Shown here one piece after another: positions 16,425-34,766 of a stretch of DNA of 34,766 bases. The notes under the pieces were generated by a model that saw nothing but the letters and a program-made list of their open reading frames with translations, was not told the DNA's origin and did not search any database. Made by a program: the position numbers and the translations under genes. The DNA is from Lentisphaerota bacterium (GTDB lineage: Bacteria > Verrucomicrobiota > Lentisphaeria > Victivallales > Victivallaceae), in assembly GCA_015061775.1 (NCBI GenBank), contig SUVY01000025.1, forward strand, positions 1-34,766. The letters run 5' to 3'. Numbering within the stretch: position 1 is the first letter of the stretch; each line of letters begins with the position of its first letter.

Positions 16425-16511
16425 CCGGGAGGAGGCGGAAAACTTCTTTTTACGGGAAAAAGAAGTTTTCCGCCCCCTCCCGGACCCTCCCCCACTTTTC
16501 AAGAAAAACGG
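16425..16511 (+). repeat. Dispersed hairpin repeat, copy 2
   Basis: A 27-base arm (16425-16451) pairs with 16457-16483 around the loop ACGGG, with a single A-C mismatch (16433 with 16475). The core is GGAAAACTTCTTTTT against AAAAAGAAGTTTTCC. A C-rich link and the tail CTTTTCAAGAAAAACGG (to 16511) follow. It starts 16 bases after the FKBP stop and may serve as its terminator or as an RNA end stabiliser, though no T-run follows the stem. The same core and tail occur near 1-118 and, inverted, near 27395-27473. Confidence 0.75.
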
Positions 16512-27394: not shown

Positions 27395-27473
27395 CGCTTT
27401 TCTTGTGAAGGGATGGGGTTTGGGGAAGGGAAACACTTCTTTTCCCGTGAAAAGAAGTGTTTCCCTTCCCCAA
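27395..27473 (-). repeat. Dispersed hairpin repeat, copy 3 (inverted)
   Basis: A perfect 24-bp stem: 27420-27443 pairs with 27450-27473 around the 6-base loop CCCGTG. The core is GGGAAACACTTCTTTT against AAAAGAAGTGTTTCCC. On the minus strand it is followed by a C-rich link and CCCTTCACAAGAAAAGCG (27412-27395), the counterpart of the tail in the other copies. Compared with copy 2, the stem carries an A-to-C change on one arm matched by T-to-G on the other. Confidence 0.8.
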
Positions 27474-34415: not shown

Positions 34416-34766
34416 ACACAGGTTTTTCCATGGGGCTGTTGCAAAACTTTATTGTTTCAGCATCGTATGGTGAGGGAGTTTAAGAGGCTGCTTGCCTCTT
34501 AAAAATCTCCCGGCAGGGGAGAGTCCCCTGCACCTCTGGCTATTGATTTTGTTCCAAAATCAATAGCCGATTCCTTTTTTGGTGGATTGGGTATTGAGCC
34601 TGCTATTCTTAGTGGTGCCGCGTTCTGCTCCCGGCTTTGTCCGCCTCTTCCCTGCGTTCGGCTCCGGGCGGCATAGTAGCCGCCCCTGAGCAGCCTTTTC
34701 TGGCTGCTCAGGCACTCTCTCCGTGCGATGCGCAAGGAATTATGCATTCCTTGACCTGCAGCAGGG
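34416..34766. other. Non-coding region packed with perfect hairpins
   Basis: No credible gene is seen in these 351 bases; an 82-codon frame on the minus strand has a composition unlike a real protein. Six perfect stems occur: 34479-34503 (10 bp), 34513-34531 (8 bp), 34538-34568 (14 bp), 34666-34685 (7 bp), 34685-34712 (11 bp) and 34733-34753 (8 bp). The start at 34434, GGGCTGTTGCAAAAC, resembles ends of some insertion sequences. The region runs off the window. Confidence 0.7.
34538..34580 (+). terminator. Possible terminator of the phosphofructokinase operon
   Basis: GGCTATTGATTTTG (34538-34551) pairs perfectly with 34555-34568 around a TTC loop, and six T come seven bases later (34575-34580). 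The stem is AT-rich and the T-run is offset, so termination is plausible but not certain. Confidence 0.4.

Follow-up and report, generated by a model that had tools for sequence, protein, structure and literature searches.

The right edge of the 34,766-nucleotide Lentisphaerota contig analyzed here (contig C74 of the 2.7 Mb, 107-contig host genome G000, hereafter the window) carries a dense array of hairpins, which raises the question of whether this is a structured RNA, a cluster of recombination sites, or the end of a mobile element. The array comprises six non-overlapping perfect stems of 14, 11, 10, 8, 8, and 7 bp between 34479 and 34753, exactly where the first-pass annotation had placed them, including the single base (34685) common to the fourth and fifth. 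Its further claim that chance would rarely produce such an array was borne out by 1000 dinucleotide shuffles of the block: stems of ≥7 bp with loops of 3–8 bases occurred 0.13 times on average and never more than twice, and no shuffle reached the six observed. No other 333-base stretch of the window came near the block (median of 0 paired bases), and its folding was exceptional with both DNA (z = −10.4) and RNA (z = −9.5) parameters.

Comparison with the rest of the genome showed that the block covers the left ~335 bp of a mobile element that is dispersed and non-coding. At 34432, 17 bases past the stop codon of the upstream gene, it opens with GGGGCTGTTGCAAAACTTT, and these first bases (34432–34450, forward strand) form a genuine terminal inverted repeat of the IS1182-family type, with one change relative to the family consensus and an inverted partner in complete copies. 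Used as a query against the host genome, the block returned 52 matches, of which 45 were strong (E-value ≤ 2e-14) and many fell at contig ends; as certain copies gave two separate matches, the total amounts to about 40 copies or fragments, 81–99% identical over long stretches. Complete copies are 430–800 bp long and flanked by terminal inverted repeats (GGGGCTGTTGCAAAACCTT), with GGGGCTGTTGCAAAACCTTATTG as the first bases and the inverse, AAGGTTTTGCAACAGCCCC, as the last. The repeat at the element ends, GGGGCTGTTGCAAAACCTY, is 17–19 bp long; an 18-base version matched the host genome 73 times (up to 3 mismatches) while a reversed control pattern had no match, giving about 70 element ends. Ten complete copies bounded by these repeats were recovered from three species, ranging from 432 to 798 bp: five in the host (798, 751, 609, 695, and 703 bp), four in G012 (650, 484, 680, and 432 bp), and one in G040 (460 bp). 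Copies occupy many unrelated intergenic sites and have clean ends. The resemblance to insertion sequence ends noted in the first-pass annotation was genuine, and two of the outcomes it had named as refuting, a lack of copies elsewhere and of an element end downstream, were contradicted: the host has dozens of dispersed copies, and the complete ones carry the inverted repeat at their far end.

The window itself holds only the left part of a whole element (34432–34766, forward strand), as position 34766 is the end of the contig and lies inside the repeat, and the feature continues past it. The last 78 bases of the window recur without change as the first bases of contig C16, on which the opposite element end lies. 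C16 may plausibly be the continuation of this copy, a link that stays unproven, as other copies contain closely similar stretches. Such repeats fragment short-read assemblies of the host genus, and about 56 of the 214 host contig ends (around a quarter) lie in or beside element copies.

The interior of the element is modular. From left to right, the window copy includes module H1 (34479–34503; 10-bp stem, loop of 5), which is found in nearly all left ends, allele a1 of slot a (34513–34531; 8-bp stem, loop of 3), replaced by module X in other copies, and allele b1 of slot b (34538–34568; 14-bp stem, loop of 3), followed shortly by a run of six T (34575–34580, forward strand). Next come a hairpin in the conserved block D (34666–34685; 7-bp stem, loop of 6), hairpin D2 (34685–34712; 11-bp stem, loop of 6), which is kept in the copies, and allele f1 of slot f (34733–34753; 8-bp stem, loop of 5), where other copies carry f2 or module X. 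Mapping 25 module sequences with BLAST on 45 loci revealed a constant order: right insertion sequence end, H1, slots a, b, and c, block D–D2, slots f and g, tail, and left insertion sequence end, the tail being either W-Y-Z or a decayed transposase start. Alternative modules exist for each of slots a, b, c, f, and g, and module X can occupy slot a, slot f, or both together (copies C9 and C39). Eight copies could be scored at all six slots and displayed seven combinations; nine of the 15 slot pairs failed the four-gamete test, and modules have therefore been reassorted by recombination.

Slot b holds at least four different stems of 13–15 bp overall, i.e., at least three others, perfect or near-perfect, in copies beyond the window. 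Alleles b1 to b4 differ at 12 of 14 stem positions while retaining pairing, with a mismatch in one variant; these arms were compared directly, as MAFFT had aligned them out of register. When its arms change, a palindrome can stay perfect through selection, through intra-strand correction at replication, or through the swapping of hairpins as whole units. Some modules also occur outside element ends. A 348-bp tandem unit repeated 3.5 times (G000:C57:23491–24724, or L277:592–1825) contains module Y and lacks element ends, and C29 and C8 may carry similar, shorter tandem arrays.

The ends of the element are of IS1182 ancestry. At the right end, a terminator-like hairpin (GGCTGTTGC-loop-GCAACAGCC) and a T run are followed by a −10 box (TATAAT) and a decayed transposase gene start. 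This end is ~80% identical over ~160 bp to an insertion sequence end that continues into a gene (MAYFTNSQGYLFLCSDIPFEEKQKL...); host copy C94, for instance, aligns at this level over this length, with start codon and frame decayed, and in G011, G012, G017, and G021 the matching end runs into the gene start MAYFTNSQGYLFLCSDIPFEEKQKLDDYLQLLEDSGVGKII. At the other insertion sequence end (G011, G022, and G003), the 3′ end of the transposase gene directly abuts the terminal repeat. In sister species, fragments of an IS1182-family transposase lie between element-type ends. C-terminal fragments from G003 and G011 had the IS1182 model NF033551 as their best match (E-values of 3e-31 and 7e-9), an assignment made on fragments that score below the whole-protein cut-off; IS5 and ISNCY models were far poorer, and the Pfam domain DDE_Tnp_1_6 was matched above its cut-off. 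Because the same ends flank these transposase fragments, the element is best described as a non-autonomous IS1182-family derivative. Its left end shares only the terminal ~18 bases and a loose further match with the right end of the insertion sequence, from which the left terminal repeat appears to derive.

Neither the host assembly nor its 33 relatives (34 genomes of the genus) yielded an intact or full-length IS1182 transposase, which is weak evidence of absence because such repeats break short-read assemblies; the transposase copy in G003 runs off its contig. With no intact autonomous partner found, we filed the element as a derivative rather than as an insertion sequence. DUF772 (PF05598) had no match in the 34 genomes, and the N-terminal transposase peptide had none in Pfam, NCBIfam, plasmids, or viral contigs, and a single, chance-level match in PDB. 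Another match to the IS1182 model, on contig C52 of G017, was set aside as it lacks this terminal repeat. The element is short, gene-less, and present in many copies, and shares terminal inverted repeats with an insertion sequence, as is typical of a MITE. MITEs are usually shorter than its 432–798 bp. The flanking direct repeats of MITEs are absent, as expected under IS1272-type transposition.

We then considered how the element inserts. IS1272 and TnSha1 are reported to target hairpins, terminators among them, and to delete or replace the stem-loop with no target duplication (PMC5678879, PMC4923244). Among the ten complete copies, no target duplication was found, the best abutting repeat being 3 bp. 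Copy C9 sits inside a member of a second palindromic repeat family of the host, where it stands exactly at the place of the 15-bp-stem inner hairpin of an intact relative. This is the sole insertion for which both sides could be compared to an intact site, a paralogue rather than the orthologous empty site. The second family (GGCTCTGTTCCCGA...TCGGGAACAAAGC, inner hairpin AAAACTTCTTTT..GAAAAGAAGTTTT) has its own inverted ends, is dispersed, and exists as long and short forms differing by inner hairpins (L122:1–200, L121:370–620, L262:115–330, and L264); it may be another MITE. Matches to this family were found in 11 of 67 element flanks, counting both sides of C9, and mostly end at or just outside the inner hairpin, with at least one (C33) just beyond the repeat; for most flanks (56 of 67), no hairpin target was identified. 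Immediately outside the element ends, the adjoining base is G-rich and the next ones A-rich (64% A at −5 to −2), with AAAA in 30 of 67 flanks vs 8 of 67 control stretches further out. These A-rich flanks are probably what remains of terminators with A and T tracts once their stem-loops had been removed. The 3.2 kb flanks yielded no orthologous empty site in the 34 genomes, and the nearest relative gave no intergenic alignment. Judging from family membership and one two-sided site, replacement of hairpins as by IS1272 is the best available mechanism, and the element apparently inserts in place of other hairpins, for instance those of transcription terminators.

The distribution of the element is narrow and patchy. 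Every named genome matching the right-end signature was a Lentisphaeria MAG, and several came from the guts of herbivores (colon bins of roe deer and sheep, along with SIG89 and UBA1791); the host belongs to a Lentisphaeria genus of herbivore guts. The signature was detected in only 4 of 388 genomes of the phylum, all four in the genus of the host, while a shorter terminal motif occurred in 23 of the 34 genus genomes; the terminal signature was not found in viral contigs. At high identity, the host-type version is common only to G002, whose C66 copy is 97.5% identical to that of host contig C16 over 316 bp, while matched flanking genes of this nearest relative are only 65–77% identical to those of the host. 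This suggests horizontal movement, or else contamination of a bin.

Taken together, with a probability of roughly 0.8, we interpret the feature as an outsized IS1182-derived MITE that is mobilized in trans, replaces hairpins, and exchanges modules between copies. Such an element would have retained both terminal inverted repeats of the insertion sequence and, at one end, its protective terminator-like hairpin and promoter, along with a decayed transposase start in some copies, with an ordered series of hairpin modules in place of the remaining transposase gene. An IS1182-family transposase would most likely act in trans on the inverted repeats, a mode we infer because no full-length transposase was found, and the elements are presumably still moving. 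Insertion would proceed as for IS1272: the target stem-loop, in many cases that of an intrinsic terminator or of some other palindromic repeat, would be excised and the element would take its place without target duplication. Copies would exchange hairpin modules at junctions they share, through recombination or template switching. A bolder version, which we regard as conceivable and rather doubtful, takes the hairpins themselves as the payload: an IS1182-type transposon that replaces terminators and palindromes would compensate with its own terminator-like hairpins, acquire and swap slot modules by hairpin-for-hairpin exchange, and evolve by shuffling palindrome cassettes.

Alternatively, the element could be a dead IS1182-derived relic now spread solely by homologous recombination and gene conversion, as the missing intact transposase and the extensive recombination between copies would allow; clean-ended copies at many unrelated intergenic sites and the near-identity of the G002 and host copies amid much more divergent genes make this unlikely. 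It is very unlikely that the repeats form a REP/BIME- or REPIN-type family moved by a hairpin-recognizing Y1 (RAYT) transposase rather than a DDE enzyme. Like the BIMEs and REPINs of enterobacteria and pseudomonads, they are intergenic, interspersed mosaics of palindromic units (PMC2817692, PMC3116915), they lack target duplications, and the host genome contains one weak Y1_Tnp match; however, BIMEs depend on RAYT and have no IS1182 terminal inverted repeats (PMC2817692, PMC3116915), while the present element has true repeats of 17–19 bp with IS1182 gene fragments at its ends, and Y1_Tnp is absent from the repeat-rich G040 and G012 and also from G002. Across the genus, matches to the corresponding Pfam model (PF01797) did not track the repeat, and Y1/RAYT mobilization was rejected. 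Finally, a repeated structured RNA gene family with a host function, a variant of the structured RNA listed among the options of the first-pass annotation, would fit the strong RNA folding and the conserved slot-b pairing, yet scarcely seems credible given the lack of any Rfam match in the whole window at gathering threshold, equally exceptional DNA folding, a patchy species distribution, and whole modules being swapped, duplicated, or lost between copies, which leaves no constant RNA. No positive evidence emerged for its suggestion of a recombination-site cluster, and an integron attC array is unlikely in view of the terminal repeats and the insertion sequence ancestry. Its remaining option, a mobile element end that forms secondary structure, gains support from the terminal repeat, the many copies, and the IS1182-family ends.

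Returning to the favored interpretation of a hairpin-replacing IS1182-derived MITE, the element is ordinary in kind as a mobile element, its unusual features being size, an interior of modular hairpins, and evidence of hairpin targets outside staphylococci. It shares with IS1272 and TnSha1 of staphylococci the transposase family, terminal inverted repeats of ~16 bp in those elements, and the lack of target duplication (PMC5678879, PMC4923244). Unlike these autonomous or gene-carrying elements, it is gene-less and filled with hairpins, and while they replace or partly delete hairpin or terminator targets, here this is seen at one site and by paralogue comparison only. IS1182-family MITEs of 160–169 bp matched to ISMac2 have been described in Methanosarcina acetivorans (PMC3852290) and are likewise non-autonomous, gene-less, and multi-copy with IS1182-type ends, whereas the present element reaches 430–800 bp and its hairpin interior is reshuffled between copies. 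Modular repeats with terminator-like hairpins, nested in one another, are also known from pneumococcal BOX and SPRITE elements (PMC3049150, PMC10969869), from which this one differs in ends, size, and host. We know of no link between BOX or SPRITE and IS1182. For a MITE, the slot-wise reshuffling of hairpin modules seen in the present element is an unusual way to evolve, and it raises the testable question of how perfect palindromes are kept and exchanged. The main described case of hairpin-replacing transposition is IS1272 in staphylococci. A high-copy family from a distant phylum, free of duplications, located at terminator-like sites, and in one case occupying the place of a hairpin, would suggest that the mechanism extends across the IS1182 family, and would offer a natural set of tens of targets.

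The element has terminator-like features in both orientations. At its right end, the hairpin and T run resemble a terminator for transcription that comes in from the right. For transcription entering from the left, the slot-b hairpin and its T6 run resemble a weak intrinsic terminator and are a weaker candidate than the right end; in copy C94, the equivalent site was flagged by a terminator consensus scan. Any such function is one we infer, and an element that replaces terminators while bringing its own terminator-like hairpins would do little harm to its neighbors.

Related hairpins were also observed outside the element. In the host, contig C34 contains a lone, intergenic terminator-like hairpin accompanied by an A run and a T run; its sequence is that of the right end of a full-type copy in C16. 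Hairpins of the form GGCTGTTGC-N(4–30)-GCAACAGCC are common across the genus (20 places in G040, 16 in G011, and 13 in G046), some being element ends and at least one, that of C34 in G000, standing alone. Within the window, two further perfect hairpins at 27420–27473 and 16434–16474 (25-bp and 18-bp stems, respectively) are members of the AAACTTCTTTT..GAAAAGAAGTTT family, palindromes of the type replaced by the element at other places in the host genome.
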